From positions 1 through 64,000 of the forward strand of contig JALHQN010000023.1 of assembly GCA_022841915.1 (NCBI GenBank): 64,000 bases of DNA, read 5' to 3'. Source of the stretch: Burkholderiales bacterium. Lineage in GTDB: Bacteria; Pseudomonadota; Gammaproteobacteria; Burkholderiales; WYBJ01. A program made the position numbers and the translations under genes. Below the pieces are notes generated by a model. It saw only the letters and a list, made by a program, of their open reading frames with translations, did not search any database and was not told the DNA's origin. Below, piece by piece: positions 4,082 through 19,078 of this stretch. The stretch's first letter is position 1; every line of letters starts with the position of its first letter.

Positions 4082-4942
4082 TCAGGCCAACTTGATCGCC
4101 TTCGCGCTTGCCTTACGGGCTCGCCGCCGCAGGGCCAAACCGAGCATGCCCAGACCGCACAACATCATCGCATAGGCGCCTGGTTCGGGCACGGGTGCTG
4201 TTGCAACCGAGAAATCGAAGTAGAAGCGGCCCGAGTCCTCGTAGGGTGAGAGCGGATTGAGATTGACAAGCTGAAACTCGGCCGAATACGTGCCGCTCGC
4301 GGCGCTTCCGTCGACCCAGTAAACAGGCTTGAACTCGAACGCATCACCATGGCCGAGCAGAATGGTGTCGCTGTTTGCGAAGAGGTTGGAGACCGACTCC
4401 GTGCCTACGGACAGGCCCGCGGTTGCCGACAGGAGTTTCAGGCCCACGGTGACACCATCCAGCGAGGATGACCAGCGTCCGCTGCTGCTATTGAGCAGTA
4501 TGTTTTCCGGGCTCCCTGGGCCGTATCCAGCGAGGGTCTGGATCGAAGCCATGCCGAGATAACTGTATTCCGACGAGCCGACACTAGAGCGGAGCTTGCC
4601 GTCATACAGGCTGCTGCCCGCAGTGAGCGGCAGAGGGGGTTCATTGGAAAAGATCTCCGGGATCCGGTTGTTGCTGTTGGTGTCCCGCACGCCCGGATGC
4701 GGGGCTGGCCCGGTATAGCTGTATACGCCGATCGAGTGAAAGTGGTTGCCGTGGTCCAGCAGCAGTGTCAATCGTCCCGCATTGGCCTCGGCAAGACCGG
4801 CATAGGTACCGGTTGGTACCGTAACCCGGCCATCGATACCTACGTAGAATCCGATCCCTTCGGCGTGTCGTACTTGGGCAACGGCAAAGCTGGTCGGCAG
4901 CAGTGCAAAGGAAATGCTCACAGCGAGTGTCTTGAGTCTCAT
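4082..4942 (-). CDS. PEP-CTERM protein, all3515-like, in the zinc island
   Basis: Exported 286-aa protein. The start at 4942 is chosen because it places a clean signal peptide (MRLKTLAVSISFALLPTSF, cleavage near AVAQ) at the N terminus. The C terminus has the sorting signal: VPEPG, a hydrophobic helix (MMLCGLGMLGLAL) and an Arg-rich tail, read by exosortase. The body has an HGNHFHSIG segment that could bind metal and resembles the all3515 family, whose cyanobacterial founder is reported to be Zur-repressed. It is divergent from the tonB-exbBD-receptor operon, with a Zur-box candidate over its own promoter. No exosortase gene lies in the window. Function is unknown; an envelope or extracellular role in zinc starvation is inferred. 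Confidence 0.78.
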   Translation of the reverse strand: MRLKTLAVSISFALLPTSFAVAQVRHAEGIGFYVGIDGRVTVPTGTYAGLAEANAGRLTLLLDHGNHFHSIGVYSYTGPAPHPGVRDTNSNNRIPEIFSNEPPLPLTAGSSLYDGKLRSSVGSSEYSYLGMASIQTLAGYGPGSPENILLNSSSGRWSSSLDGVTVGLKLLSATAGLSVGTESVSNLFANSDTILLGHGDAFEFKPVYWVDGSAASGTYSAEFQLVNLNPLSPYEDSGRFYFDFSVATAPVPEPGAYAMMLCGLGMLGLALRRRARKASAKAIKLA

Positions 4943-5020
4943 GAGGCGGGTCCTAGTCACGGTTCGTTGGAGCTGAGGGTGGCTTCGGTCGATGGTTTGG
5001 AAGGGTCTGCCTTCCGAGAT

Positions 5021-5033
5021 GCATCTTAGTTGC
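5021..5033 (-). promoter_or_regulatory. Candidate Zur box A
   Basis: GCAT-CTTAG-TTGC is a 7/8 match to the dyad GCAA-N5-TTGC found elsewhere in the island. Read on the minus strand it overlaps the proposed -10 (TAAGAT) of the PEP-CTERM gene at 4082-4942. The core CTTAGTTGCA (5025-5034) recurs at 11234-11243 in front of a second PEP-CTERM gene at a similar distance from its start. Confidence 0.5.
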
Positions 5034-5051
5034 AACAATGACGAGCGTCAA
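5023..5051 (-). promoter_or_regulatory. Promoter of the all3515-like PEP-CTERM gene
   Basis: On the minus strand TTGACG (5051-5046) and TAAGAT (5028-5023) are separated by exactly 17 bp, a good sigma-70 arrangement. The candidate Zur box A covers the -10, as expected for repression. Confidence 0.5.
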
Positions 5052-5135
5052 TCCGCTTTCGGCTTGAGCTTCATCTCTGATTGCACTATTAAGTTGAGCG
5101 GGCCGCCGCAAGGGCATCCATGGCATCGCTTTGGT

Positions 5136-5148
5136 GCAATGAAGTTGC
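5136..5148 (+). promoter_or_regulatory. Candidate Zur box B, upstream of tonB-exbB-exbD-znuD
   Basis: GCAA-TGAAG-TTGC is an exact match to the dyad proposed as the local Zur operator. It lies 65-77 bases upstream of the tonB start and overlaps the -35 hexamer of the best promoter candidate. Confidence 0.55.
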
Positions 5149-5174
5149 CTTAGCAAGTAGCGTTGTGCTGTAAT
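5145..5174 (+). promoter_or_regulatory. Candidate promoter of the zinc TonB operon
   Basis: TTGCCT (5145-5150) and TGTAAT (5169-5174) are 18 bp apart, and the -10 carries an extended TG motif (TGC before the hexamer). The TTGC half of Zur box B is the first part of the -35. Confidence 0.4.
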
Positions 5175-5212
5175 CGAATTCGCAGATCAGCTCGTATCGC
5201 ACAATTCGGCCC

Positions 5213-6007
5213 ATGCGCGTGGCCGCACATGCTGCAACTCCGATGTCCACCAATCCCACCAAGCTCTTCCGATATCGCTTTTCGGCTGCTTCCATTCGCG
5301 GTGTCGGCCTGCGGCTGAGCGCGGTCGTGGGCGCCCATGCTGCCTTGTTGTTCGGCCTGACGCACATCGACTCGGAAGTACGAAAGCAACTCGAGCCGCT
5401 CATGGTGAGCATCATCAACTCCCCGACACCGCCGGCGGAACCGATCCCTTCTCTTCCACCGCCGCCACCGCCTCCATCCCCCGTGGTACGCGAGACCAAG
5501 GGTCCAGCGCCTGCACCGGTCGTTCGCAAGGCAGCCCCGCCCCCTACGCCGGTAATCACCCAAGCGCCTGCAACGACGACCTCACCGACTGCTATCGAAG
5601 CTCCACTGGCCGAAGCTGCGCCGCCACCTGTTCTCTCTGGTGCGCCATCGAGCGACGCTGCGCCTTCGCCGGCTCCGTCACCCGCGACGATTGTTGCCGC
5701 GTCCAAGCCGCCATCGCCTGCTGTCGTGCCGCCACGTTTCGATGCCGCCTATCTGAACAATCCGCGACCTGAATATCCACGCGTCTCGCGCCGCATGGGT
5801 GAGCATGGCAAGGTAATGCTACGCGTGTATGTGACCGCGCAAGGTACGGCTGAACGAGTGGAAGTTCGAACGTCGAGTGGATCGCAGCGTCTGGATCAGG
5901 CGGCCCGCTCGGCGGTCGAACAGTGGAAGTTCGTGCCTGCGCGCCAAGGAGATGATCCCGTGGCTGCCTGGGTGATCGTCCCGATTACTTTCGTGCTGGA
6001 AGGATGA
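5213..6007 (+). CDS. tonB: TonB energy transducer, zinc-island copy
   Basis: A 264-aa TonB: it spans the periplasm and passes proton-motive energy from ExbB-ExbD to outer-membrane receptors. It has one N-terminal membrane segment (LSAVVGAHAALLFGL), a long Pro/Ala-rich linker (about residues 70-170) and a C-terminal TonB domain (RFDAAYLNNPRPEYP through WKFVPARQGDDPVAAWVIVPI). Start may be ATG 5213 or 5243; neither has a clear ribosome-binding site. It is first in a tight operon with exbB (4-base gap), exbD and a receptor with a His-rich loop, behind Zur box B. The C-terminal domain is closely similar to that of the second TonB at 59.7 kb, pointing to paralogy with separate regulation. Confidence 0.92.
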   Translation: MRVAAHAATPMSTNPTKLFRYRFSAASIRGVGLRLSAVVGAHAALLFGLTHIDSEVRKQLEPLMVSIINSPTPPAEPIPSLPPPPPPPSPVVRETKGPAPAPVVRKAAPPPTPVITQAPATTTSPTAIEAPLAEAAPPPVLSGAPSSDAAPSPAPSPATIVAASKPPSPAVVPPRFDAAYLNNPRPEYPRVSRRMGEHGKVMLRVYVTAQGTAERVEVRTSSGSQRLDQAARSAVEQWKFVPARQGDDPVAAWVIVPITFVLEG

Positions 6008-6011
6008 AACG

Positions 6012-6761
6012 ATGAACGAGACCGGAACCGTCGGCCTAATGACATTTTGGGCGCAGGCCGATGTGGTTGGAAAGTCCACCGCACTGCTGCTGCTCGTCAT
6101 GTCGCTCGCCACCTGGTATCTCATACTCTCCAAAGCGCTGCAGATGTGGCGCATGCGTCATGAGGCGGACTCGGCTCAAAATGCGTTTCGCGATTGCGCC
6201 GATATCGGGACGGCGCTTACGTGCATGAAGAACGACGCGCCGCAGAGCCCGTTCACGTCGGTTACCGCCGAGGGCATTGCTGCAAGAGCGCAGTACGACC
6301 GGCTTGCCCGAAGCGGCACGGTGCCGCCCCTCGATCTTTCGGAGTTCATGACCCGAGCACTCCGGCGGGCCATGCAGCGGGCAGCAGCGGGCATGGACTC
6401 CGGCCTGTCCGTACTTGCATCGGTGGGTGCTACCGCGCCATTCATCGGACTGTTTGGTACCGTCTGGGGCATCTATCACGCATTGATCGGCATAGGCTTC
6501 ACCGGCCAGGCTTCGCTCGACAAGGTGGCGGGTCCAGTGGGAGAAGCGCTCATCATGACTGCCTTCGGCATCGCGGTGGCCATCCCTGCCGTCTTGGCCT
6601 ACAACTTTTGCCTGCGCTCGAACCGCATTTTGCGCGAAGAACTGGACGGATTCGCCCAGGATTTGCATGCGTACTTCATGACCGGAAGCGCATGGCCGAC
6701 GCAAGAAATGGGTGCGATGACTGCCAGCCCGCAAGACTTGGCGACCGGTAAAGGATACTGA
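6012..6761 (+). CDS. exbB: ExbB (MotA/TolQ/ExbB proton channel), zinc-island copy
   Basis: A 249-aa inner-membrane proton-channel subunit partnering ExbD and TonB. It shows an N-terminal membrane helix (STALLLLVMSLATWYLI), a cytoplasmic loop, and the paired helices of the MotA/TolQ/ExbB domain with SVGATAPFIGLFGTVWGIYHAL and GPVGEALIMTAFGIAVAIPAV. Length fits ExbB better than TolQ, and tonB and exbD neighbours settle the assignment. It begins 4 bases after tonB and ends 1 base before exbD, so translation is probably coupled. Regulation follows the upstream Zur box B. Confidence 0.93.
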   Translation: MNETGTVGLMTFWAQADVVGKSTALLLLVMSLATWYLILSKALQMWRMRHEADSAQNAFRDCADIGTALTCMKNDAPQSPFTSVTAEGIAARAQYDRLARSGTVPPLDLSEFMTRALRRAMQRAAAGMDSGLSVLASVGATAPFIGLFGTVWGIYHALIGIGFTGQASLDKVAGPVGEALIMTAFGIAVAIPAVLAYNFCLRSNRILREELDGFAQDLHAYFMTGSAWPTQEMGAMTASPQDLATGKGY

Positions 6762-6762
6762 C

Positions 6763-7185
6763 ATGGCATTCGGTAACCTAGGCCAGGCCGAAGATCAGCC
6801 GATGGCGGAGATCAACACGACGCCGCTAGTGGATGTGATGCTCGTACTGCTCATTATCTTCATGGTGACAGCGCCGCTCTTCACGCATGCCGTGAAGATA
6901 GACCTTCCGCATGCGCAAAGCCAACTGAATCCAGAGAAGCCGGATTCGATTGCGTTGGCGATCGATGCACAAGGTCGGCTGCATTGGAACAACGAGGCCG
7001 CAGAAGAATCGACTCTGCCTGAACGTTTTTCGCAGGCGGCGTCGCTCGACCCGCAGCCAGAGCTACATTTGCGGGCAGATCGAGACACTCGGTACGAAGT
7101 CATCGCGCGCGTAATGTCACAAGCGCAGACGGCAGGTTTGAAGAAGATCGGTTTCGTCACCGATCCTGCCGCTGAGCGCAAATAG
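6763..7185 (+). CDS. exbD: ExbD biopolymer transport protein, zinc-island copy
   Basis: A 140-aa ExbD with a short cytoplasmic N terminus, one membrane helix (VDVMLVLLIIFMVTAPLF) bearing the conserved Asp of the proton path in LVDVMLVLL, and a periplasmic domain ending in GLKKIGFVTDP. The MAEINTTPLVDVMLVLL start of the family is evident. It is the third gene of the tonB-exbB-exbD-receptor operon, 1 base after exbB and 9 bases before the receptor. The ExbD at 61.2 kb is a clear paralogue with the same HAVKxDLP segment after the helix. Confidence 0.93.
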   Translation: MAFGNLGQAEDQPMAEINTTPLVDVMLVLLIIFMVTAPLFTHAVKIDLPHAQSQLNPEKPDSIALAIDAQGRLHWNNEAAEESTLPERFSQAASLDPQPELHLRADRDTRYEVIARVMSQAQTAGLKKIGFVTDPAAERK

Positions 7186-7194
7186 GGAACTGGG

Positions 7195-9363
7195 ATGCTG
7201 ATCTGGTGCTCGGAGATCGCGTGCAGGGCGCACGACCGAGTTCCTGCAAGCGGTGCAACTCAGCGGCGGACGCGGCTTGTACTGCTCGTTGGCTGTCTTT
7301 TTCAAACCATGCCTTTGGCGTATTCCCAGTCCGTCGAGCCGACCGAATTGGCACCCGTCAAGGTGGAAGGCCAGCGCGAGCGGGATGTGCCGTCCGATGC
7401 GCGTCCCGACACGCGCTTACGGGGCGACGAACTCAGACAGAGGCAAGGATCGACTCTCGGTGCGACACTGCAGGATGAGTTGGGGGTCGCGAATTCCTCC
7501 TTCGGGCCGGGTGTAGGCTTGCCCGTCATCCGCGGCATGACAGGCCCTCGTGTGCGCATACTGCTCGATGGTCTCGGCAGTCACGACGCTTCGAGCGTGA
7601 GTCCGGATCATGCTATTGCGCTCGAGCCGATGTTGGCCGAGGAGGTGCGCGTCATGCGAGGGCCAGCTGCCATACGATATGGAGGTGCTGCCATCGGCGG
7701 GGCAGTCGAGGTCATCGACGAGCGCATTCCACAAAGCGTGCCCAAGGCGGGCGTGGCGGGCCTCGCGCAAGCACGCATCAACAGCAACGGTAACGAACGA
7801 GCCGCGGCTTTCAAGCTCGGCATCGGCCAAGGCATGCTGGCCCTGCACTTGGACGGCTTCCGACGCGAGCGGGGCAATCTCCAGATCCCTAGCCGCGCGA
7901 TCGATGAGGCTGCAATCGTTCGACAGTTCGGACTGCTCAGCGCGACCAATACCACGGGGTACGTCGGCAATACCGATGGTTCAAGCGCCGGGGCGAGCAT
8001 AGGCGCAGCGATCATCGGGCAGCGAGGCTCGTTGGGAATGTCGTTCGGCGGGCTGGACAACGAATACGGCATTCCCGCTGGTGCGCATTCGCATAGCCAT
8101 GGGCCCGGTGCCGCGCCAGCCAACGATGTCGCGCGGATCGACCTCAAACAGCGCCGCCACGATCTGAAGGGCCGGCTTCTGCTAGGCGATGTGCTGGAGT
8201 CGGTTGAGGTGCGCGTCGGTCGCGTCGACTATCGGCACACAGAACTCGACAATGGCATCGCCCAGACGACCTTCACCAACGACGTGCTGGAAGGGCGGAT
8301 CGAGTTGAATCATCGGTTTTCGAAGCAACTCAGCGGCACGGTCGGCGGACAGTTTCTGGATCGCACATTTGCAGCGCTCGGCGCGGAGGCCTTCGTGCCG
8401 CGCTCGCAAATCCGCGGCAGCGCTGGGTACCTCACACAGCGTCTGGATCTCGGTCCGTACTCGTTCGAGTTCGGTGCTCGTCGTGAGCGGCAACGCATCG
8501 ATCCGGACCCGCAGCTGACCGTGTTCGGCACCCGAGTCACCCAGCGGGAAGTCACGCACACCGCCGAGAGCTTTTCGTTCGCTTCGAGTCTGAAGTTCGC
8601 GCGTGAGGACAGCCTGACGCTCACTATGACGAGAGCCAAGCGCACACCCGACGTTCAGGAGCTGTTCGCGCTGGGGCCGCATTTGGCCACGCGCACGTTC
8701 AATATCGGAAACAGTCGCTTGAGTCGTGAATCGATCGACGGTGCCGATCTAGGGTTGTCCGTCGACCGAGGCGTGGTCGCCGGCAAGGTCAATGTGTTTC
8801 GATACCGGGCCAGGGACTACATCTACCAGCGCAACGCAGGACTGTTCTACGATCCCGACGTGCGCCAATTCCGAGTGATCTGCGTGCGCCTGGACGAATG
8901 TCTTCCAGTGCAGCGCTATGAGCAAAGCGATGCGCGCTTCAAGGGCTTCGAGCTGCAATTGGCCTTCCGTCTCGCCGAGGTGCCCTTCGGACTGCTGGAG
9001 CTCAAGCCGTTCACGGATTATTTGCGGGCTTCGCTCGATGACGGCACCGACGTGCCGCGCTTGCCGCCTATGCGGTACGGTATGGAGGTGTCGCTGCTCG
9101 CCGAAGCGTGGTCGGCGTCCGTGCGCCATACGCGCGCTCGCCCGCAGCTGCGGCCAGGTCTCAACGAGACCGAAACAGCGGGCTTCGAGCAGCTCAATGC
9201 TCAGGTCGAGTACCGTGTGCGCCACGGGCGGTTCGAGACGACCTTCTTCTTGCAGGGGCGCAATCTGCTCGATCGCGAGATCCGAAACTCGGTCTCGTTC
9301 CTGCGAAACTATGCGCCCGAGGCGGGGCGTGCGATCGAACTGGGGCTGCGCTCGAGCTTCTGA
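7195..9363 (+). CDS. znuD: TonB-dependent outer-membrane receptor, ZnuD-like (probable zinc)
   Basis: A 722-aa receptor with an N-terminal signal region (TRLVLLVGCLFQTMPLAYSQ), a plug domain (VIRGMTGPRVRILLDGLGSHD, then MRGPAAIRYGGAAIGGAVEVID) and a beta-barrel ending in Phe. A loop holds His298, His300 and His302 (GAHSHSHGPG), and another holds two nearby Cys (563 and 569). Such His-rich and Cys-pair loops are known in the ZnuD zinc receptors of Neisseria. The gene follows exbD by 9 bases and lies behind Zur box B with zur and two COG0523 GTPases nearby, supporting zinc as substrate. Other metals or a zincophore complex cannot be excluded from sequence alone. Confidence 0.82.
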   Translation: MLIWCSEIACRAHDRVPASGATQRRTRLVLLVGCLFQTMPLAYSQSVEPTELAPVKVEGQRERDVPSDARPDTRLRGDELRQRQGSTLGATLQDELGVANSSFGPGVGLPVIRGMTGPRVRILLDGLGSHDASSVSPDHAIALEPMLAEEVRVMRGPAAIRYGGAAIGGAVEVIDERIPQSVPKAGVAGLAQARINSNGNERAAAFKLGIGQGMLALHLDGFRRERGNLQIPSRAIDEAAIVRQFGLLSATNTTGYVGNTDGSSAGASIGAAIIGQRGSLGMSFGGLDNEYGIPAGAHSHSHGPGAAPANDVARIDLKQRRHDLKGRLLLGDVLESVEVRVGRVDYRHTELDNGIAQTTFTNDVLEGRIELNHRFSKQLSGTVGGQFLDRTFAALGAEAFVPRSQIRGSAGYLTQRLDLGPYSFEFGARRERQRIDPDPQLTVFGTRVTQREVTHTAESFSFASSLKFAREDSLTLTMTRAKRTPDVQELFALGPHLATRTFNIGNSRLSRESIDGADLGLSVDRGVVAGKVNVFRYRARDYIYQRNAGLFYDPDVRQFRVICVRLDECLPVQRYEQSDARFKGFELQLAFRLAEVPFGLLELKPFTDYLRASLDDGTDVPRLPPMRYGMEVSLLAEAWSASVRHTRARPQLRPGLNETETAGFEQLNAQVEYRVRHGRFETTFFLQGRNLLDREIRNSVSFLRNYAPEAGRAIELGLRSSF

Positions 9364-9473
9364 GTCGCCGGCTGAGCTTGCGAGCGATTATGGGTGCACA
9401 CAATATGCGAGGCTATGTCGTCGTTACTTGAGCATAGTACTGCGGAGTGTGCGCGATATGCAAAGCGCATTCG

Positions 9474-10379
9474 CTATGCTGCGCGGCGTCCTCGAAACCA
9501 TCGACGCACTAGGACAATAGGAAGGGCTGCGATCATCAGCCACAGCGCTTGTGGTTCAGGGACTGCCGGCAGCGGTGCCTGTATCCGTGACAGAAATGCG
9601 CTTTCGTAATCGCCGCTGCTCAGTCCGTTGTTGAATAGGATGAAGAAAGGTGTGGAGTCGCGATACTTGCCGCTGGGGTCGAACAATTGGAGTTGTGCCA
9701 GATATGCGCCCGATGGCCGGTTGCCTTCAAGAAACCAGTTCAAATGCGTATGGAACGAGCCGTTCGCCGCAGCTTCGTCGACCATCTTGGTGAGTGGGCC
9801 TACGATTCCCGATCCCGTGATCGATGTTGGATTAGTGTAGTAGGCGAATTGTGCGAGCGCGGCGGGATCGTTGAAGACGAGTGCGTTGATCGCGATCTCA
9901 GACGGTACTGTGCCTTCAATTCGAAGGCTCGTGCCTGCTGGAGCAGCCTGCCAGGTGCGCGATCCGGATTCCCAGTGTAAGGCCGTGCCCAGAGGACGAT
10001 AGAAGATGCGTTCGCCCGCGAGGAAGGTTCCAGAGAAAGACTGGAAGCCTGGGTCGTCGGTAGAGTAGATGCCCCCTGGAGCATCGCCGAAGTCAGCTGG
10101 CCAGATGCCATACCCGGTGCTATGGTCGAGAGCGGCTCGTCCGTTGATCAATAAAGCATTGTCGCCGAAGAACGATACCTGAAGTGCACTGCCAGCCACC
10201 GGGCCATTGCTCGTTCTAATCTCGACGTCGAAGTGCAGTGATTGCGCTCGCGCAGGGGGCGCGGAGAACGGCACCGTGAACACGCCAAGCACGACGGCCA
10301 CGATAGCCACTGTGCGCGCTGCGCCGACTCGTCGCAGGTTCCAGGCAAATCTTGATCTGATAGCCGTTCCAGAGGACAT
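9474..10379 (-). CDS. PEP-CTERM protein, second of a zinc-island pair
   Basis: A 301-aa exported protein: a basic N terminus and hydrophobic core (VAIVAVVLGVFTVPF) with cleavage near ARAQ, and a C-terminal VPEP motif, hydrophobic helix and RGRRAA tail for exosortase sorting. Its body shares an ordered motif set with the upstream neighbour: DDPGF, an HxH (FHTHLNWF), GAYLAQLQLF, then DSTPFFILFNNGLS. The two are therefore paralogues of one fold. It begins 8 bases after the end of that gene, so they form one transcript. It converges on the receptor gene. Function is unknown; the HxH suggests metal binding, and the setting suggests expression under zinc limitation. Confidence 0.75.
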   Translation of the reverse strand: MSSGTAIRSRFAWNLRRVGAARTVAIVAVVLGVFTVPFSAPPARAQSLHFDVEIRTSNGPVAGSALQVSFFGDNALLINGRAALDHSTGYGIWPADFGDAPGGIYSTDDPGFQSFSGTFLAGERIFYRPLGTALHWESGSRTWQAAPAGTSLRIEGTVPSEIAINALVFNDPAALAQFAYYTNPTSITGSGIVGPLTKMVDEAAANGSFHTHLNWFLEGNRPSGAYLAQLQLFDPSGKYRDSTPFFILFNNGLSSGDYESAFLSRIQAPLPAVPEPQALWLMIAALPIVLVRRWFRGRRAA

Positions 10380-10387
10380 TGAGCTTA

Positions 10388-11161
10388 CTACCTGTTAGAT
10401 TCTTTGCGTCGAACCCGCCAGGCAATCAGCCCCAGCGCCGGCAACAGCATGAGAGCAGCACTCGGCTCAGGCACTGCGAGCGCGTGCACGGATGCCTCGA
10501 ACGCCTCCTCGCTCAGGCCACGATTGAATGCGATCAGGAACGGATCGGAGTCCAGGTACTTGGGTATCCCGCCATCCAGTGTCATCGTCGTGAGTTGCAG
10601 TTCGATCAGGTAAGCACCGGTGGCGACCGGAGCGCCGAAGTCCGCAGCAGCGTTAGCATTGTTGATGAGAAAGAAATCGATATGTTGGTGGATGGCCCCT
10701 TCGGGGTCGGCGACATCGATCTGGCCTGTTCCGCCCATGACGCCGCTTGTCAGGATGTTGATCTGATTGGCGGGAAACGACGTATCCACCACACGAACGA
10801 ATTCGTTCTGCGGCGAGGTAGCGATCCAGTTCGACCCGTTCCAGTACTTCAACCCTCCCAGCCCGCGAAACGAAAGATTGTCACCCGGCTGCATCGGTCC
10901 GGGTTCGCCCGTGTCGAAACCAGGATCGTCGGTCGTCCAGCGAATCTGCCCCGATAATGCCTGAGGCATGCTGAAGCTGCCCTCGAAGATCGGATATCCC
11001 GTGCCGAACTGTGTTTCTGCGCCACCGCCGATCGTGATTTTCCCGGCCGCGATTCCAGGTTGAACGTCGCCGGAATGCGTGTGCTGAGCGTGCGCAAATG
11101 GCGTGAGTGCGATGGCCGCCGCGGCCGCGATGGCTCCGAGCAAAGTCTTCGTGCTGAGCAT
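10388..11161 (-). CDS. PEP-CTERM protein, first of a zinc-island pair
   Basis: A 257-aa exported protein. Start 11161 is preferred over in-frame starts further upstream because it gives a typical signal peptide (MLSTKTLLGAIAAAAAIAL, cleavage at AHAQ) and has GGAGACG upstream. The mature N terminus starts HTHSGDVQPG and an HxH recurs mid-protein (IHQHIDFFL); both are possible metal ligands. GAYLIELQL and DSDPFLIAFNRGLS match the downstream paralogue. The C terminus has VPEPSAALMLLPALGLIAW and an Arg/Lys tail. Upstream lie an exact GCAA-N5-TTGC dyad (11304-11316) and the CTTAGTTGCA element (11234-11243) shared with the promoter of the first PEP-CTERM gene. Function unknown. Confidence 0.76.
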   Translation of the reverse strand: MLSTKTLLGAIAAAAAIALTPFAHAQHTHSGDVQPGIAAGKITIGGGAETQFGTGYPIFEGSFSMPQALSGQIRWTTDDPGFDTGEPGPMQPGDNLSFRGLGGLKYWNGSNWIATSPQNEFVRVVDTSFPANQINILTSGVMGGTGQIDVADPEGAIHQHIDFFLINNANAAADFGAPVATGAYLIELQLTTMTLDGGIPKYLDSDPFLIAFNRGLSEEAFEASVHALAVPEPSAALMLLPALGLIAWRVRRKESNR

Positions 11162-11233
11162 GGAACGTCTCCGTGGGTTCGGTGCGCGCCTATAGCCTTC
11201 CCTGCCAGGACGGCGCACCAGTAATGACGAGAA

Positions 11234-11243
11234 CTTAGTTGCA
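11234..11243 (-). promoter_or_regulatory. Element shared with the 5.0-kb PEP-CTERM promoter
   Basis: CTTAGTTGCA is identical to 5025-5034. Both copies lie about 80-90 bases upstream of a PEP-CTERM start codon, in the same orientation. As an operator it is only a partial dyad (AGAA-CTTAG-TTGC). Confidence 0.35.
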
Positions 11244-11303
11244 TGTACATGGGCAGACCGGAAGCAATATATGCTATGACGCGCTTGCCGCATCCCATTA
11301 AAT

Positions 11304-11316
11304 GCAAGTGAGTTGC
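11304..11316 (-). promoter_or_regulatory. Candidate Zur box C, upstream of the PEP-CTERM pair
   Basis: GCAA-GTGAG-TTGC is an exact dyad with further symmetry (ATGCAA...TTGCAG). It lies 143 bases upstream of the PEP-CTERM start at 11161 and after the stop of the WD40 gene, so it would control the PEP-CTERM pair independently of the zigA-WD40 unit. Confidence 0.5.
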
Positions 11317-11372
11317 AGAATAAGCGCGGCACTGGCTTAAGTCAAGATCCGTGCGTCACTGGGGGCTCGGCC

Positions 11373-12395
11373 TCATGCTGGTGCTCGAAACACCGCGACG
11401 TTCCCCGCGGAATCGGCGACCAGCAAGCGCGTTCCACGTCGATCCCATGCCAGCCTGGTGATGGCACATCCGGCTTCGAGCTGACCGCAACCTATCGCCC
11501 GTGTGCCGTTGCGCCAGAGTGTTACCCGGCCGGCCTGGCATGCGCTTGCCAGAAGCTTTCCATTCGGTGCCCAGGCCAGTTGCGTGATGGGCTGCTCGTG
11601 CATTCGCAGCATCGTGGGTTTGGTGTTGGCCGGACCCTTGCCGCTGCACTTCCATAAGACGACATCGATACCGCCGCCTGTCGCCAGATGCCGCGAGTCC
11701 GGGCTCCACGCCAGTTCACGGACCTTGAGCGCGTAGCCCGACATGTGCAGATCTGCGCCGCTGTCGGTGTGCCAGAGATGGACGCTCGAATCTTGATTGC
11801 CGCTTGCCAGCATGCGGCCGTCCGGACTCCATGCAATCGCGAGGATGGAGCCCTTCCACTCGTATTGACGAACGGACGCTGCGGCGTCCCGCGCGAACAG
11901 CGAGATTCCGCCGTAAGTCGAAGCTGCCACGACCTTGCCATCGGGCCGCCAAGCCAAGTCTGAAATCGTGCTGGTTGCAGGTGGGAACGCCTGCATCAGG
12001 CTTGCATCGCGGTGCCACAGCTTGAGTATTCGCCCTGAAGCGGTGGCAAGTGCGTCGCCTGCGGGCGACCAAGCGACCCGCTCTACCCAGGTGCCACCTC
12101 CCTCGACGGCAGCAGACTCGTCACTGTCGGCGGACCATATACGCGCGAAGCCGTCCTGGCCTCCGCTCGCGAGCCGATTTTCCGTGGGATGCCAGGCGAT
12201 CGTCATGGCGCCCTGGGCGTGTCCCGCAAGCGTGCGCATGACTTGCCCATTCGGCGAGTCGAGCAGAACGATCGGCCCGTCGCCTCCTGCGACTGCGATT
12301 CGATCCGAAGTAGGCGACCACGCGAGATCGATCGCATAGTCTTCCAGGCAGAACCGCCATGCCGGCTCCAGCGTCTTGGGGGGCGCTGCGTTCAT
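11373..12395 (-). CDS. WD40-repeat protein coupled to the COG0523 GTPase
   Basis: A 340-aa cytoplasmic protein (no signal peptide) made almost wholly of eight WD40-like blades, each with an LAWSPDG-type turn (for example [54 protein letters not shown]), predicting a beta-propeller for protein contacts. The start at 12395 overlaps the stop of the GTPase gene as ATGA, so translation is coupled and 1:1 partnership is likely. An in-frame extension to 12626 lies inside the GTPase gene and is rejected. WD40 genes beside zinc COG0523 GTPases occur in other betaproteobacteria as far as I recall. A scaffold or client-presentation role for the zinc chaperone is inference. Confidence 0.85.
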
Positions 12396-13732
12396 GACGC
12401 CAGGCAGGCTCGAAAGCCGGTGTCGAGAATCTCCCGGTCGAGATTGCGGCCGATGAACACGAAGCGGCTTTCGCGTGCTTCGCTGCCCCAAGGCCGACTC
12501 GGCATCACATCGAGCAGCATGTGAACGCCCTGAAACACGTAGCGAGCCGGTTCGCCCCGTAAACTCAAAATGCCCTTCATGCGAAAGATGTCCGTGCCGT
12601 GCTCGCGAAGGAGAAGCCCGAACCACGCGTCCAGCTTGGCGCGATCGAAATCGCCGGAGATATGAAAGCCCACCGAACCGATATCGGAGTCATGCTCGTG
12701 GCTCGGCTTGAAGTCCATCTGCGCTTGCGCAACCTGGGGGACGCCTGCGCGCTCCACCCTTAGGTTGAACTCGTTGGGATGGTGCTCGGTGAATAGCGCA
12801 TAGCAGCCGGGATTCGAAATTTCGAAGCGATGTCGTGAACCGCCGGGGCCCACCTCGATGCGCACGCAAATCGGCCCTGGTTGGGAAGGCGTGTCGTCGA
12901 TGCTCGGCTGCGCCTCGTTGGAGAAGGCTGCGGCGGCGCGCACACATGCGTCCCGAATGGCGTCCGGAGCCGCCGTGGCGATGGGCAATAGCAGGAACGA
13001 CATGGCGGGATCGGGGCCGCTGTCGAGTGCAAGCTCATAACGGCCGCGCTCGAGCGTATACGCCCCGGCCCATTCGAAGGGCTGCTCGGCCTCTAGAAAG
13101 CGCGGGTCGATCACGAGCGCCCGTTCGATATCGAATCCACCGACGTTCAGCACAACTTCGATGGGCAAGTTGGCCTGCTCGCAACGGCGTATGCGAGCGG
13201 CCGCGTTGATGCTGCGTATGCGTGCTTCGAGCCGGTCAAGGTCGGCCGCCGCCACGAGATCGCACTTGTTGAGCGCGATGACGTCGGCGAACGCGATCTG
13301 TTCTTGCGCTTCCTTCGAGTCGTCGATGTGTTCCCAGATGTGCCTGGCGTCGACCACGGTGACGATGCCATCGAGCGTCAACTGCGAGCGAATCTCTTCG
13401 TCGACGAGAAACGTTTGCGCGACCGGCCCCGGGTCGGCGAGGCCGGTCGTTTCGACCAGGATGTGATCGAACTTGTCGCGGCGTTTCATGAGACTGCCCA
13501 GGATTCGGATGAGGTCGCCGCGCACGGTGCAGCAGATGCAACCATTGTTCATCTCGAAGATCTCTTCTTCGGCGCCGATCACCAGGGCCTGATCGACGCC
13601 CACCTCGCCGAACTCGTTCTCGATAACGGCGATGCGCTTGCCGTGCTGCTCGCTGAGAATGCGGTTCAGAAGCGTTGTTTTCCCTGCGCCGAGGAAGCCG
13701 GTCAACACGGTGACGGGCACGGTTGTTTTCAT
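12392..13732 (-). CDS. zigA: COG0523 zinc-chaperone-type GTPase (ZigA/YciC-like)
   Basis: A 446-aa G3E-family GTPase: Walker [10 protein letters not shown] (residues 12-20), the metal-binding CICC at 65-68 within [23 protein letters not shown] switch [16 protein letters not shown] specificity motif, and a CobW C-terminal domain that runs to the end with [10 protein letters not shown]. Family members use GTP hydrolysis to deliver Zn(II) to client proteins, and Zur-regulated ones act in zinc starvation. It diverges from zur across a 130-bp intergenic region with candidate Zur box D and is followed by the coupled WD40 gene. Cobalamin or other metal subfamilies are less likely in this setting. 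Confidence 0.88.
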
Positions 13733-13797
13733 CTGCGTCTCCTGCTATCCGGAATGGGGGCGAGTGCCCGGCATCATGCCAAGATAGGGCTCCAGTT

Positions 13798-13810
13798 GCA
13801 ACACAAATGC
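13798..13810. promoter_or_regulatory. Candidate Zur box D, between zigA and zur
   Basis: GCAA-CACAA-ATGC matches the proposed dyad at 7 of 8 positions and runs into a perfect 12-bp palindrome CAAATGCATTTG (13804-13815). It lies in the shared regulatory region of divergent zigA and zur and could control both. Confidence 0.5.
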
Positions 13811-13848
13811 ATTTGCGTGAAGAAGTGTTTTCCTGCAATGAGCGGCGG

Positions 13849-13854
13849 TATACT
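13849..13854 (+). promoter_or_regulatory. Candidate -10 of zur
   Basis: TATACT lies so close to the zur ATG (13863) that transcription would start at or next to the start codon. No Shine-Dalgarno sequence precedes the ATG, consistent with a leaderless mRNA. The -35 match (TGTTTT, 13826-13831) is weak. Confidence 0.35.
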
Positions 13855-13862
13855 CGTAAACA

Positions 13863-14318
13863 ATGAAAGACTTTGAATCTACGGCTGAAACTCTGATCCG
13901 GAGCACTGGCGATCGGGTTACCGGCGCTCGCGTACACGTGCTGGCGGTGTTGCTCGGCGCCGGGCGTGCTCTGACCCACAACGAGGTCGAGGCGCGCCTC
14001 GAGCCCGAGCTCGGTATCAATCGAGTAACCGTATATCGTGTTTTGGAGTGGCTGACGCAACGGAACATCGCCCACAAGTTGTCGGGCGAGGACCGGGTCT
14101 GGCGGTTCTCTGTGCAGGAGCAGGGGCACGGCGGCCAACATCCTCACTTCGTATGCAACGCGTGTGGTCGAGTGCTCTGTTTGGCAGACAGCGACGAAAG
14201 CCCTAAACCGCGCTTGCCGGTCGGCTTTCAGTCCACCGAGATGGAACTCACGGTGAAGGGCTTGTGCGATGCGTGTAATGAACACTCTCGCCGCACCGCT
14301 GCCCGGGGCAAGAAGTAG
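13863..14318 (+). CDS. zur: Fur-family zinc regulator Zur
   Basis: A 151-aa Fur-family repressor. The N-terminal winged helix covers residues 1-85 with recognition helix INRVTVYRVLEWL. The C-terminal dimerisation domain has two CxxC pairs, Cys98/Cys101 (CNAC) and Cys135/Cys138 (CDAC), the usual structural Zn site, plus HPH at 93-95 as candidate sensory ligands. The very long His-rich N-terminal site typical of Fur is absent. Two divergent or adjacent COG0523 GTPases and a zinc-type receptor nearby make Zur the best subfamily; Fur and PerR are unlikely. It appears to lack a ribosome-binding site. With Zn bound it should repress the surrounding units at GCAA-N5-TTGC dyads (inference). Confidence 0.88.
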   Translation: MKDFESTAETLIRSTGDRVTGARVHVLAVLLGAGRALTHNEVEARLEPELGINRVTVYRVLEWLTQRNIAHKLSGEDRVWRFSVQEQGHGGQHPHFVCNACGRVLCLADSDESPKPRLPVGFQSTEMELTVKGLCDACNEHSRRTAARGKK

Positions 14319-14357
14319 CGTCTCTTCGTTCTGAACGGACGTCTTGTCCGCATAATA

Positions 14358-14376
14358 TTCGCAACATCGTTGCGAA
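14358..14376 (+). promoter_or_regulatory. Candidate Zur box E, upstream of the second COG0523 gene
   Basis: The best operator in the island: a perfect 8-bp inverted repeat TTCGCAAC and GTTGCGAA separated by ATC (14358-14376), containing GCAA-CATCG-TTGC. It lies between zur and the second COG0523 gene. A CATAAT hexamer just upstream (14351-14356) would place the box at the transcription start. Confidence 0.6.
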
Positions 14377-14448
14377 CCTGCGTTAAAGTTCGACCTCTAA
14401 GCAGGGCCGGCACGCCGTGCCACTGGCGAACCCGCGCTCCGAGAGACG

Positions 14449-15498
14449 ATGATGGCTGCGATTCCAATCACGCTACTGACCGGTTACCTGGGCAGCGGCA
14501 AGACGACATTGTTGTCGCGTTTGTTGAAGCATCCAGCTCTGGTCGATACCGCGGTCTTGGTCAACGAGTTCGGCGAGATCGCGCTCGATCATCAGCTGCT
14601 TTATTCGGCCAGTGAGACCGTTGTGCTCCTTGACCGTGGCTGCCTGTGCTGCGCGCTGCGCAGCGATCTTGCGGAGCAACTGGATGACTTGTACACCCGG
14701 CGCATGCGTAAAGAGGTGCCGCCGTTCAAGCGCGTCGTGATCGAAACCACCGGCTTGGCCGACCCCGCACCCATCCTTCAGACCTTGGTTGCCGAGCCGA
14801 TGCTTGCGGCCTTGTATCGATTGGATGCTGTCGTGACCACGGTCGACGGCGAACTCGGCGGACGTACGCTCGACGCGCACTTCGAATCGATCAAGCAGGC
14901 GGCCATCGCCGACAGGTTGGTGGTGACCAAGTCCGATCGGGTGCAAGACGCCGCGCTGAGCGCGCTGGAGCAAAGGCTCCGGCAGATCAATCCGGCCGCG
15001 CCTGTTTTGCGTGCGATCAACGGCGAGGTGCCGCCCGAGGCGTTACTCGGTGCTGCCCTGCACGATCGTGGCGAGAAGCGTGCGCACATCGAACAATGGC
15101 TGATGAGCCAGCGCTATCCCTCGGTCGGCGTCCAGAGCTTGTTCGCGGCAGGTGCTGCCGAGTCCGTTCACGACCGACGTATCCGGTCGTTCGCGTTGAC
15201 CTACGACGCGCCTGTTTCCGGCGCCGCCCTGTGGCAGGGTCTGGAACGCTTGATCGATCGGCATGGCGAGAAGTTGCTGCGCATCAAGGGCATCGTCAAT
15301 GCGCAGGGGCAAACGCAGCCGAAGGTCATCCATATCGTTCAGCATGTTCTCTACCCCGTGCAGACTTTACCGCAATGGCCAGATGACGATCGCCGCACAC
15401 GGCTGGTCTTCATTCTGCGGGATCTCGATCTCCAGGATGTCCGTGCTGTGCTCGACGATTGCTTGATCCCGACTGCAACCGCGAATAGCGCGGGATAG
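14449..15498 (+). CDS. Second COG0523/CobW-family GTPase
   Basis: A 349-aa G3E GTPase: Walker A GYLGSGKTT (residues 12-20), CLCC at 65-68 in [36 protein letters not shown], a TKSD specificity motif in place of NKxD, and a CobW_C domain (RSFALTYDAPVSGAALWQGL). ATG 14449 or 14452 could start; GAGAGACG lies upstream. It is shorter than the zigA-like paralogue at 12.4-13.7 kb and belongs to a different subgroup. With Zur box E in front and an ABC transporter, a small exported protein and DUF3299 following, it heads a likely zinc-starvation operon. The metal and client are unknown, but zinc is the simplest reading. Confidence 0.86.
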   Translation: MMAAIPITLLTGYLGSGKTTLLSRLLKHPALVDTAVLVNEFGEIALDHQLLYSASETVVLLDRGCLCCALRSDLAEQLDDLYTRRMRKEVPPFKRVVIETTGLADPAPILQTLVAEPMLAALYRLDAVVTTVDGELGGRTLDAHFESIKQAAIADRLVVTKSDRVQDAALSALEQRLRQINPAAPVLRAINGEVPPEALLGAALHDRGEKRAHIEQWLMSQRYPSVGVQSLFAAGAAESVHDRRIRSFALTYDAPVSGAALWQGLERLIDRHGEKLLRIKGIVNAQGQTQPKVIHIVQHVLYPVQTLPQWPDDDRRTRLVFILRDLDLQDVRAVLDDCLIPTATANSAG

Positions 15499-15536
15499 TT
15501 GCCTGTTCGTGTTCGTTCAACGAGGTTGCCGCAGAC

Positions 15537-16175
15537 ATGTTTTCGCTTGCCAATGTGCAGCATCGCTATGACGAGGTCGTCGCGCTCGCGATCGACGACT
15601 GGAGTGCCGCTCAAGGCGAGCACAGGCTGGTGCTCGGCCCCTCTGGCAGCGGCAAGACGACGCTTCTGCACTTGCTCGCCGGGGTGTTGCGCCCGCAGAG
15701 TGGTGTCGTCAAGGTGGCCGATTGCGACCTCGCCACACTCTCTTCTGCGGCACTCGATCGGTTTCGCGGGCAGAACATAGGCCTTGTCCTGCAGCGGCTG
15801 CATCTGATGTCCAGTCTGTCCGTGGAAAAAAATCTCCTGCTGGCGCAATACTGCGCAGGTCTGCCCCAGGATGCGAGCCATATCGAGCAATTGCTGTCCG
15901 ATCTCGGCATTGCTGATCGTGCTCGCGCTTATCCGCACCAGCTCAGTCACGGGCAGGCCCAGCGGGTCGCTGTCGCGCGCGCAGTCCTGAACCGCCCCAA
16001 ATTGATTCTTGCCGACGAACCGACGTCGAATCTGGACGATGAGAACTGCCAGCAGGCGCTGCGGCTGCTGTTGGATCAGGCGGACCGATGCGGCGCCACA
16101 TTGCTGATCGCCACTCATGACAGCCGCCTCAAGCCCCACTTCGAACATCATTTCACGCTGCCGGTGAACGAATGA
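15537..16175 (+). CDS. ABC transporter ATP-binding protein (LolD/MacB-like) of the zinc island
   Basis: A 212-aa ATPase: Walker A GPSGSGKTT (about residues 39-47), Q-loop VLQRLHLM, signature LSHGQAQRVAVARA, Walker B LILADEPTSNLDD and switch His in ATHDSR. Similarity is to the LolD/MacB/FtsE class, which powers mechanotransmission rather than classic import. Its stop overlaps the permease start (ATGA at 16172-16175). It follows the second COG0523 gene by 38 bases. The set ATPase, FtsX-like permease, small exported protein, DUF3299 recalls, from memory, the zinc-responsive PA4063-PA4066 operon of Pseudomonas aeruginosa. Substrate unknown. Confidence 0.88.
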   Translation: MFSLANVQHRYDEVVALAIDDWSAAQGEHRLVLGPSGSGKTTLLHLLAGVLRPQSGVVKVADCDLATLSSAALDRFRGQNIGLVLQRLHLMSSLSVEKNLLLAQYCAGLPQDASHIEQLLSDLGIADRARAYPHQLSHGQAQRVAVARAVLNRPKLILADEPTSNLDDENCQQALRLLLDQADRCGATLLIATHDSRLKPHFEHHFTLPVNE

Positions 16176-17380
16176 ACTTGGCCACCCTCAGCTTTTCGTA
16201 TGTTCGGGCGCGTCCCTGGAACACCGCGCTGATACTGCTTCTGCTCGCCCTCGGCACAGCCACGATCACGATGCTGCTGCTGGCGTCCGCGCAGTTGCAC
16301 GAACGCATGCATCGGGATGCACGCGGCATCGATCTGGTGGTGGGCGCAAAGGGCAGTCCGCTCCAACTCGTGCTGTCGGCCGTTTATCACCTCGATGTCC
16401 CCACGGGGAACATTCCGTTGTCCGAGGCCAAGGCGCTGCAGCAGCGCAAACCCCTGGTAAGGCACGCGATACCTCTGTCGCTGGGCGATTCCTATCAGGG
16501 CTTTCGAATCGTGGGCACCGAGCACAGCTATGTCACGCACTATGGTGGCAAGCCGGCACAGGGCCGGCTGTGGGAGAAATCGATGGAGGCGGTGCTTGGG
16601 GCCGAGGTGGCGCAACGCACAGGCCTTCGCCTCGGCGGGAGTTTCACCGGATCGCATGGCCTCGAGGAGGGCGGCATGCATCACGGCGATCATCCCTACG
16701 CGATCGTAGGCGTGCTCGAGCGCACAGGGACCGTTCTCGACCGGGTCATTTTGACGAGTCTGGAGAGCGTTTGGGACGTGCATGCCAAGGCGCATGTCGA
16801 TCCCGGCGAGAAGCCGATGCCTCTCGAGGAGGAGGAGAAGGAGATCACTGCGCTGTTGATCCAGTACGGATCGCCGTTGGCGGTGTTGCAGTTGCCCCGA
16901 TTCGTCAATATCCAGACCGAAATGCAGGCGGCCTCACCTGCCTTCGAGAGCGCACGCTTGTTCAGGTTGCTCGGTGTCGGCTTCGATGTCGTGCGCGCGT
17001 TCGCTGCGATTCTGATCGTCAGCGCGGCGATCAGCGTTTTCGTCGCGCTGTACAACGCACTGCGCGAGCGGCGCTACGACCTGGCCATTCTCCGAACGCT
17101 GGGCGCGTCGCGCCGCAAGCTCATGGGCTTGATCGTCGTCGAGGGAATCATGCTCTCGATGCTTGGATCCTTGATCGGCATCGCCCTGGGGCATGTCATG
17201 ACCGAACTGCTCGGCATGCTGTTGAGTGCGCGCCAGCAGGTGGAGATCACCGGGTGGTATTGGGTTCAGCACGAATGGTGGCTGCTGGTGATGGGTGCAG
17301 CGGTGGGCTTGGCGGCGGCGATCGTCCCGGCGATATTCGCCTACCGGACCGATCTTGCTCGCACGCTCGCGGAGGGCTGA
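16172..17380 (+). CDS. FtsX/MacB-like ABC permease of the zinc island
   Basis: A 402-aa inner-membrane protein of the MacB/FtsX type: an N-terminal helix (ALILLLLALGTATITMLLL), a large periplasmic MacB_PCD-like domain (about residues 35-255, including the His-rich GLEEGGMHHGDHPYAIVG), then three C-terminal helices within the FtsX domain (FAAILIVSAAISVFVALYNA, then LMGLIVVEGIMLSMLGSL). Its start overlaps the ATPase stop, so the two are coupled. The HHGDH stretch faces the periplasm and may bind metal. In this class the pump works on periplasmic or outer-membrane partners, so the exported small protein and DUF3299 next door are plausible partners. Direction of action is unknown. Confidence 0.87.
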   Translation: MNLATLSFSYVRARPWNTALILLLLALGTATITMLLLASAQLHERMHRDARGIDLVVGAKGSPLQLVLSAVYHLDVPTGNIPLSEAKALQQRKPLVRHAIPLSLGDSYQGFRIVGTEHSYVTHYGGKPAQGRLWEKSMEAVLGAEVAQRTGLRLGGSFTGSHGLEEGGMHHGDHPYAIVGVLERTGTVLDRVILTSLESVWDVHAKAHVDPGEKPMPLEEEEKEITALLIQYGSPLAVLQLPRFVNIQTEMQAASPAFESARLFRLLGVGFDVVRAFAAILIVSAAISVFVALYNALRERRYDLAILRTLGASRRKLMGLIVVEGIMLSMLGSLIGIALGHVMTELLGMLLSARQQVEITGWYWVQHEWWLLVMGAAVGLAAAIVPAIFAYRTDLARTLAEG

Positions 17381-17400
17381 GGAACGCTTTGGAAATCGAT

Positions 17401-17691
17401 ATGAGGGGGCAAGAGATGATCGCAAGGAGCTTGAGGAGCGTGCTGGCGCTGGTGCTTGCAGCCGGCTCGATCGCCTTTTCTGGCGCGGCCGAGGCTGCCC
17501 ATGCGCACAGCAAGCAGCAGCTGGACGAAGACATCATGGATCACCGCACGATGGCCGAAGCGCACCGCAAGGTGGCGGATTGCCTGGAGGCAGGCAAGCC
17601 GGAGAAGGAGTGCCGGGCACAGCTTGCCAAGGACTGCAAAGGAGTGGGCATCGGGCGTAGCTGCGGCATGAAGGACAGACACAAGCATTGA
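17401..17691 (+). CDS. Small exported Cys/His-containing protein of the zinc island
   Basis: A 96-aa protein (91 aa from the alternative ATG 17416) with a signal peptide (SLRSVLALVLAAGSIAFSG, cleavage near AEA) and a mature part of about 65 residues rich in possible metal ligands: HAHS at the new N terminus, DHRTMAEAHRKVADCLEAG, four Cys in all, and a KDRHKH tail. The regular Cys spacing suggests disulfides or a metal site. It lies 20 bases after the ABC permease and upstream of DUF3299. I do not recognise a named family. A periplasmic zinc-binding partner of the transporter is inferred from context only. Confidence 0.7.
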   Translation: MRGQEMIARSLRSVLALVLAAGSIAFSGAAEAAHAHSKQQLDEDIMDHRTMAEAHRKVADCLEAGKPEKECRAQLAKDCKGVGIGRSCGMKDRHKH

Positions 17692-17882
17692 CGGTGCACG
17701 GGTGTTGCGGATGCGATCGATCCGCCGCTTCGCGACGGACGGGCCTTCGGTTGCCGTACAATATCCGGCCGCCTAGGGTGTCAGGCGGGTGATCGGGTTC
17801 GACCAAGTTTCCTGATGCCCGGCTTCCCGCCGATGGTGTCGATAGCCAGCGTGTTCCTCCCAACCTGCTCGAGGAGGGTTTC

Positions 17883-18383
17883 ATGAGATTCCTGCTTTAC
17901 GTCGCGCTGTCGCTGGTGCTGGGGCAATCGATCGTATGGGCATTCACCGGTGCGCCCAAAGAGGATCCCGGTCCGCGCTCGCCGCCGCCCGAATTCTTCG
18001 CGAAGCCGCTGCCGGAACTGAAGGGCGTGGTGTCTTGGAAGACGCTCGCCGAGGTGACGCCGGTCAAGCAGAAGGACAAGTTCATTCCCAGTTTTTCCCG
18101 CGGCATTGTCAGCCTGGACAAGAAGGAAGTGCGCCTGCAGGGCTTCATGCTGCCTCTGGAGACCGGCGAGCGCCAGAAGACCTTCATTCTCACAGCAATG
18201 CCGCCAAGTTGCGCGTTCTGCCTGCCGGGCGGGCCGGATGCGATCGTGGAGGTCAAGGCCAGGACGCCGATCAAGTACGCCTACGAGCCGATCGTCGTGA
18301 GTGGCCGCTTCACCCTACTGCGAGACGATCCCACGGGGTTGTTCTACCGGCTGACCGATGCGGTGCTGATCAGCGGGAAGTAG
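17883..18383 (+). CDS. DUF3299 domain exported protein
   Basis: A 166-aa protein with an N-terminal signal or anchor segment (MRFLLYVALSLVLGQSIVWAF) and a DUF3299 domain: VRLQGFMLPLETGERQKTFILT, then the Cys pair in PPSCAFCLPGGPDAIVEV. The CxxC resembles a metal or redox site in the periplasm. GAGGAGGGT precedes the ATG. It follows the small exported protein by 191 bases and closes the zinc island. DUF3299 genes commonly sit with LolD/MacB-like ABC genes under zinc control in other proteobacteria as I recall. The function is unknown. Confidence 0.82.
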   Translation: MRFLLYVALSLVLGQSIVWAFTGAPKEDPGPRSPPPEFFAKPLPELKGVVSWKTLAEVTPVKQKDKFIPSFSRGIVSLDKKEVRLQGFMLPLETGERQKTFILTAMPPSCAFCLPGGPDAIVEVKARTPIKYAYEPIVVSGRFTLLRDDPTGLFYRLTDAVLISGK

Positions 18384-18524
18384 CCGCAGAGCGCGGTACG
18401 GGCTCGACAGTGACGGGTGTCCGGTGGTCGCGGGCAATCCGTCTGCTTGCGCGTATATAATCCTTCTTGCTCTGCCGTGCACAAGCGGCGGCCTCCTGCA
18501 TCCATCGAGTTCCTCCGCTGACCT

Positions 18525-19070: not shown

Positions 19071-19078
19071 TCCGAGAT

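Follow-up and report, generated by a model that had tools for sequence, protein, structure and literature searches.

The compact zinc locus that extends from the gene of ZepA to that of a second COG0523 GTPase (positions 4082–15498) on contig C23 of a 6.21-Mb genome raises the question of what role is played by two adjacent genes, here called A and B, whose secreted products carry a His-x-His (HxH) motif (Table 1). Positions without a locus prefix refer to the window, i.e., the entire 64,000-nt stretch of DNA that was analyzed. The original prediction regarded the two products as tandem PEP-CTERM paralogs that capture zinc or form a scaffold outside the cell. The evidence presented below suggests that A and B are probably paralogous secreted zinc-binding proteins (zincophores or co-receptors) that serve one dedicated ZnuD-type receptor. 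It is this receptor link, absent from the original prediction, that carries most of the meaning of the pair. The locus also encodes a WD40 protein between B and the COG0523 GTPase at 12392–13732. The Fur-family regulator (13863–14318) is likely Zur by context, an identity that sequence alone cannot settle; PMC10957091 (section 13) makes the same point about the cases treated there.

Table 1. Genes and candidate operators of the zinc locus, with the matches on which each assignment is based.
Feature	Position	Strand	Evidence
ZepA (all3515 family, Zur-repressed PEP-CTERM protein)	4082–4945	-	NF040463 272.9 bits (cut-off 75); Pfam PEP-CTERM 32.5 bits; HGNHFH
Candidate Zur box, ZepA/TonB intergenic	5016–5038	.	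18.3 bits, rank 2
Candidate Zur box upstream of TonB	5131–5153	.	16.2 bits, rank 3
TonB	5213–6007	+	PF03544 82.6 bits
ExbB/TolQ-type	6012–6761	+	PF01618 108.1 bits
ExbD/TolR-type	6763–7185	+	PF02472 110 bits
ZnuD-type TonB-dependent receptor	7195–9363	+	NF038289 307.7 bits (cut-off 950); PDB 4rdr 197.7 bits; HSHSH loop
A, secreted paralog with HxH (FHTH)	9474–10379	-	tail with VPEP, seen only by eye
B, secreted His-x-His protein with PEP-CTERM tail	10388–11161	-	HxH = residues 158/160
Candidate Zur box upstream of B-A (TGCAA-N5-TTGCA)	11299–11321	.	19.8 bits, rank 1 in window
COG0523/CobW-type GTPase, putative zinc metallochaperone	12392–13732	-	PF02492 210.2 bits
Candidate Zur box, COG0523/Fur intergenic	13793–13815	.	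15.4 bits, rank 4
Fur-family regulator	13863–14318	+	PF01475 45.6 bits; context
Weaker box upstream of second COG0523 gene	14356–14378	.	8.1 bits, rank 6, not beyond shuffles
Second COG0523/CobW-type GTPase	14449–15498	+	PF02492 151.8 bits

The prediction of a tandem paralogous pair held, including its coordinates. The local alignment score of the mature parts of A and B (178) was reached by 0 of 1000 shuffles (mean 35.5, sd 6.1), and a profile–profile comparison with signal and tail included yielded a probability of 100 (E 4.5e-46). Reading of the translations also bore out the shared motifs DDPGF, HxH (FHTH in A, IHQH in B), GAYL..LQL, and DSxPF...NxGLS, which occur in the same order in both proteins, and the HTHSGD at the start of the mature first protein: B begins with an ATG at 11161, and its probable mature part with QHTHSGD. 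PEP-CTERM tails had been postulated for both. B passes the gathering score of PF07589 (24.1 bits vs. 20.7, with 32.5 for ZepA), whereas the tail of A, by eye a VPEP followed by a hydrophobic stretch and Arg, has no Pfam match at E≤0.1 and a weak NCBIfam match (17.5 bits; cut-off 65). Beyond these tail matches, neither protein matched a family in Pfam (E≤0.1), NCBIfam (E≤0.01), or PHROGs (E≤0.01), and a PDB profile search gave no sequence match at E≤1. The exosortase implied by the prediction is encoded in the source genome (PF09721 234.8 bits; G000:C8:223846–224613). In two B-type proteins of other loci (L058:162–1040 and L059:11375–12151), the tails are of the VPLPAG/VPVPAA type instead of VPEP and fall below the Pfam PEP-CTERM cut-off.

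Relatives of A and B are rare and scattered. They were found in six of 200 genomes of the order (with B as query), in 5/369 of the class (profile search), in 3/398 of the phylum (profile, E≤1e-12), in one of the 53 genomes of the order of G317, and at three loci of a named collection (Methylobacillus gramineus, Methylobacillus glycogenes, and a Pirellulaceae assembly), in sets that overlap in genomes and were searched with different queries and thresholds. In the class, nine genomes had passed; G051, G220, G367, and G474 were dropped as matching only the tail. At E≤1e-5, neither A nor B had a match in the three other genomes of the genus, which include one that is 87% complete. Invariant in all 30 aligned A/B domains are D32, P80, G81, H158, H160, G182, and S205 (B numbering), in an alignment that includes near duplicates (L057, L058) and leaves out the broken A gene of L026. 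The HxH was kept also throughout an earlier alignment of 17 domains, and many members have a His near the mature N terminus. At L060, a B-type protein (4948–6399) has extra His-rich stretches and an HD-repeat end, and an A-type protein (11877–13829) is fused to a Kelch propeller. In Methylobacillus glycogenes JCM 2850 (L026:7319–11579), the receptor and A genes lie in several frames and are either broken or affected by draft errors.

AlphaFold2 models of the mature proteins, built from six sequences, are confident and rich in beta strands (pLDDT 84.1 and pTM 0.85 for B; 88.3 and 0.84 for A), with the HxH located at the beginning of a strand or immediately ahead of it. Foldseek found no match at E≤0.001 for either model. 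The best VIA match of B was FimA (Z 7.1, rmsd 4.0, 142 aligned), which was also matched by A (Z 6.1, rmsd 3.6, 128 aligned); weak matches to multicopper oxidases had Z-scores of 5.5 and below. Kinship to pilin- or adhesin-like sandwiches was rejected as too weak for a claim at Z≤7.1; a Z-score below 8 may reflect nothing more than a shared arrangement of strands or helices.

The gene at 4.1 kb, originally considered a third relative of the pair, is all3515/ZepA by its NF040463 score, which lies above the cut-off, and contains the expected HGNHFH; its kinship to the pair is marginal. A and B have no NF040463 match at E≤0.01, and the motif H-X2-9-H-F/Y-H, present in ZepA, is absent from both by reading. 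In local alignments, 2 of 1000 shuffles scored as high as A with ZepA and 306 of 1000 as high as B with ZepA. An initial profile match between A/B and ZepA (probability 97.5) was discarded because the alignment took in the PEP-CTERM tail, and was replaced by an hhalign comparison without signal and tail, which gave a probability of 24 over 34 columns, with a score (29.95) above those of all 60 column shuffles (maximum 21.6). ZepA may be a distant relative of A and B, but the case is marginal.

The two families are nevertheless alike in several respects. Both ZepA (All3515) of Anabaena and the A/B proteins have a signal peptide, a PEP-CTERM tail (in A recognizable by eye), a His cluster, and a beta sandwich in the model, and would be secreted; they have similar neighborhoods (Fur-family regulator, COG0523 proteins, TonB-dependent receptor) and the same candidate operator. 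They differ in the NF040463 match and the His motif, and A/B are tied to a class of ZnuD-type receptors. The ZepA model, unlike those of A and B, comprises two domains (PMC10957091, section 10). The same source describes ZepA of Anabaena as experimentally Zur-controlled and zinc-related. In the order-level set, ZepA is present in five and A/B in six of the 200 genomes, and four have both (P 1.2e-6, a value that ignores kinship, with G054 and G174 belonging to one genus).

The most informative feature of the A/B loci is the receptor. Fourteen of the 16 loci with an A or B gene encode a ZnuD-type receptor within a few kilobases (the window, L013, L025, L026, L028–L032, L057–L060, and L092, with L032 cut by a contig end), in differing gene orders. 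A B-type gene without a nearby receptor occurs at L012 of the source genome and at L027 (Pirellulaceae), which counts against a dedicated receptor. By eye, a nickel/cobalt-transporter-like gene lies about 2 kb from the Pirellulaceae gene (L027:6919–7827).

The window receptor misses the NF038289 cut-off and is therefore filed as ZnuD-type rather than as ZnuD; its best PDB match is ZnuD itself (4rdr). The high-affinity zinc ligands of neisserial ZnuD are printed as D90/H100/E340/H499 in PMC4557270; in the alignment with 4rdr, the ligand Asp is the neighbor of H100. The corresponding columns of the window receptor hold D138, H139, E350, and H496, and the His-containing loop of this receptor resembles loop 3 of ZnuD (4rdr; PMC4557270). 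All four ligands are kept in each of the 12 A/B-linked receptors compared (all but the broken one of L026 and that of L032, which a contig end truncates) and also in the receptor of L091, which lacks the pair; the ligands therefore argue for zinc and not for pairing.

Receptors similar to ZnuD are common in the order (47/200 genomes, of which five are among the six with A/B). The seven top-scoring ones form a separate class (526–1608 bits), with the next at 358, and this class sets the A/B-linked receptors apart from the other ZnuD-like proteins. Six of the seven adjoin A/B or are fused to them; the seventh (G182, L091; 526.5 bits) had no A/B within the 20 kb read, and its membership in the same class counts against dedicated pairing. 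In the literature searched, a single paper (PMC10957091) deals with all3515 in connection with Zur and zinc and with ZepA in connection with zinc and PEP-CTERM, and no paper connects PEP-CTERM with ZnuD. ZnuD is not known to have a secreted partner made by the same organism.

The closest association of A domain and receptor is found at a second locus of the same genome. On contig C1, a single open frame of 2134 amino acids (L013:6223–12627, minus strand) encodes, in this order, an A domain, passenger repeats, an autotransporter barrel (residues 1068–1318), and the plug and barrel of a receptor (autotransporter 194.9, Plug 51.6, barrel 99.8, and ZnuD 331.2 bits). Its A domain is 67% and its receptor 69% identical to the respective window proteins, and a divergent B-type gene adjoins it. 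The N-terminal segment of the receptor occurs in three tandem copies ahead of the plug (46, 42, and 60% identity to the segment of the window receptor), the last of which is the receptor's own. This topology would be consistent: the chain of an autotransporter barrel has its end in the periplasm, the compartment in which the TonB-contact segment and plug of the receptor must lie. Misassembly is unlikely: exact DNA matches shared by the window and the fusion locus reach 18 nt at most, and the frame contains no exact repeat of at least 20 nt and no N. By eye, integrase-like, HNH-like, and type I restriction-like genes flank the locus (L013:1438–4358 and 14036–19201), which suggests an acquired island.

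Two other genomes, which belong to a single genus, encode the A domain as passenger of an autotransporter (933 or 934 amino acids) that lacks a receptor domain; the receptor is encoded by a separate neighboring gene. As in classical autotransporters (type Va), the A domain of these proteins and of the fusion takes the place of the passenger, and both PATR repeats and the barrel of an autotransporter are present. By contrast, the barrel of the fusion is not C-terminal but is followed in the same chain by a complete TonB-dependent receptor. Both kinds of fusion should place the A domain outside the cell; the export tail of A is thus exchanged among loci, and its destination, the cell surface, would stay constant. 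A single assembly is the source of the full receptor fusion, which counts against the reading as zincophores or co-receptors. We know of no outer-membrane protein elsewhere with this possible two-barrel architecture, and none was apparent among the matches listed in a full-text literature search for such a fusion.

The association with zinc is also indicated by a palindromic operator that is common to the promoters of the locus and whose binder would be Zur. A blind count of palindromes in four training regions, covering all half-sites of 5 and gaps of 0–10, ranked GCAAC-N3-GTTGC first and TGCAA-N5-TTGCA second, which represent the same box in two registers. A weight matrix of 12 sites from four loci (L025 and L026 of Methylobacillus and the similar L030 and L031) was scored at all positions of the 64-kb window. 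The four best scores (19.8, 18.3, 16.2, and 15.4) compare with maxima of 19.4, 13.0, 11.5, and 9.7 in 50 shuffles. This test was not blind, because promoters of the window were among those in which the training-site pattern had originally been spotted. The best box barely beats the shuffle maximum, and only the four taken together are conspicuous. The weaker box at 14356–14378 has an exact inner palindrome, CGCAA-N5-TTGCG. The strict pattern YGCAANNNNNTTGCR matched 32 sites in the genome vs. 20 for a reversed control, which is weak alone, so that the argument is borne by the matrix. A loose pattern with two mismatches matched 37 window sites vs. 24.7 expected (2 of 100 shuffles had as many), and the pattern TGWTATNNNATAWCA had no window site with up to two mismatches.

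At other loci, the top matrix hits lie in the gap between fusion and B (L013), at A/ZepA and TonB (L028, where one of the two TonB sites, at 7559, may overlap the start of the frame), at A (L029, with a weaker hit in the gap between receptor and B), and at TonB (L032). The promoters of ZepA on two other contigs carry the box (L078, 25.2 bits; L079, 15.4 bits). A site of 13.8 bits just precedes the Pirellulaceae B gene (L027:9953), and one of 10.2 bits lies at L015:3308. No convincing box was present at L012, at L093 (ZnuA), at L001 (exosortase), or in front of ZepA at L080, which by eye has a GTTATAAC-type palindrome instead; at the AT-rich loci L091, L059, L060, and L092, matrix scores are uninformative. 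In the gap between receptor and B, three tandem operator copies follow each other in exact steps of 18 bp at L025:9870–9920, L026:9791–9841, and L030:8866–8916, and the same tandem operators occur at L031 (8697, 8715, and 8733).

The published Zur motif of E. coli (PMC6103462) is matched in 20/20 bases in the gap between receptor and B at L059, a locus that comes from a different order within the class. Further matches to this motif have one to two mismatches at L060, three at L058, and two at L092, where an equal number of loose sites arose in 11 of 200 shuffles. Together with the matrix boxes and the Zur-regulated ZepA, the motif at L059 ties A and B to zinc via two types of operator. In the order to which the window belongs, the matrix box is a likely Zur operator.

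These observations can be arranged into a mechanism that remains conditional at each step. Zinc shortage would lift the repression by Zur at the TGCAA-N5-TTGCA boxes. A and B would exit by Sec, and exosortase would process their PEP-CTERM tails and leave the proteins at or beyond the cell surface, a step that in the window is based on a PEP-CTERM HMM match for B and ZepA but not for A. Both would bind Zn2+ on an Ig-like beta sandwich by the invariant HxH, probably together with the invariant N-terminal Asp. They may dock on the receptor or stay beside it and pass zinc to its D-H/E/H site, as linkage and fusion suggest. Judging from gene content, uptake would be powered by the adjacent TonB-ExbB-ExbD system, and ZnuA and the COG0523 proteins would take the zinc on. 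At the second locus, the handover would occur within one chain, with the A domain as autotransporter passenger and, after the autotransporter barrel, the tandem N-terminal segments, presumably in the periplasm, followed by plug and receptor barrel. Of the original interpretation, which is supported in part, surface export and zinc capture gain strong but indirect backing from the exosortase, the HxH of all 30 domains, the receptor linkage, the candidate Zur boxes, and the fusions. The tail of A that Pfam does not recognize, the receptor score below the NF038289 cut-off, and the loci that lack the box count against the mechanism.

Other explanations for the pair have to be weighed against this evidence. 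A and B might be surface components that gate or cap the receptor and bind a zinc-loaded protein or ligand instead of carrying zinc; precedents are the SusD-like lid and the TbpB-like co-receptor. The recurrent linkage and the tether of the fusion are no less compatible with a fixed co-receptor than with a carrier that diffuses, but the HxH and Asp in 30/30 domains and the His- and Asp-rich end of the B-type protein of L060 speak for direct contact with the metal, which makes a pure gating role rather unlikely. That the pair serves another metal, such as copper, in a CopC-like manner via an N-terminal His and the HxH of a beta sandwich, is very improbable. The strand-rich models, the invariant Asp, the His near the mature N terminus of many members, and the weak fold similarity to multicopper oxidases would agree with copper; the zinc ligands kept in the receptors compared, the Zur-type boxes, and the ZepA and COG0523 neighbors do not, and CopC is absent from the Pfam matches.

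PEP-CTERM proteins are often matrix proteins, and A and B might be matrix or adhesin-like proteins that merely share a zinc regulon, in line with their weak fold similarity to pilins and fimbrial adhesins. The Z-scores concerned may reflect only a common arrangement, and a structural role would account neither for the linkage to a receptor nor for the fusion or the metal-type residues that never vary. The extracellular scaffold considered in the original prediction gained no support, and there is little to recommend it.

The reading as secreted zinc-binding partners of a ZnuD-type receptor resembles known systems such as HasA-HasR (hemophore and receptor) and azurin-OprC, in which a TonB-dependent receptor obtains its cargo from a secreted metal or heme protein. 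These pairs differ from A/B in fold, metal, and export route, and we know of no physical fusion of carrier and receptor in pairs of this type. Azurin-OprC is also cited as a parallel for ZepA (PMC10957091, section 17). Extracellular scavenging of zinc by a protein, as ascribed to ZepA, and carrier–receptor pairs for heme and copper are already known. As far as the literature searched shows, the A/B family, its pairing with a receptor, and the fusion of carrier, autotransporter, and receptor are new. It is tentatively proposed that A and B represent a new family of zinc carriers, made and secreted by the cell itself, with a receptor class of their own and interchangeable anchoring by an exosortase tail, an autotransporter, or a carrier–barrel–receptor chain. 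If this is true, the one-chain form would be a two-barrel outer-membrane protein in which a tether running through the periplasm joins the extracellular carrier to its receptor; the A/B loci would thus offer a possible example of such a protein. The candidate receptor is encoded next door and is fused to the putative carrier in one genome, and the handover model is therefore directly testable.

Downstream of the zinc locus, the region 15537–18383 encodes an ABC ATPase, an FtsX/MacB-type permease, a small His-containing secreted protein (17389–17691; no Pfam match), and a DUF3299 protein. In the order of its parts, this set resembles PA4063–PA4066 of Pseudomonas. The latter system is zinc-responsive (PMC8531726). 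Matches to the ABC, FtsX, and DUF3299 components also lie near zinc genes at L032 and L060.
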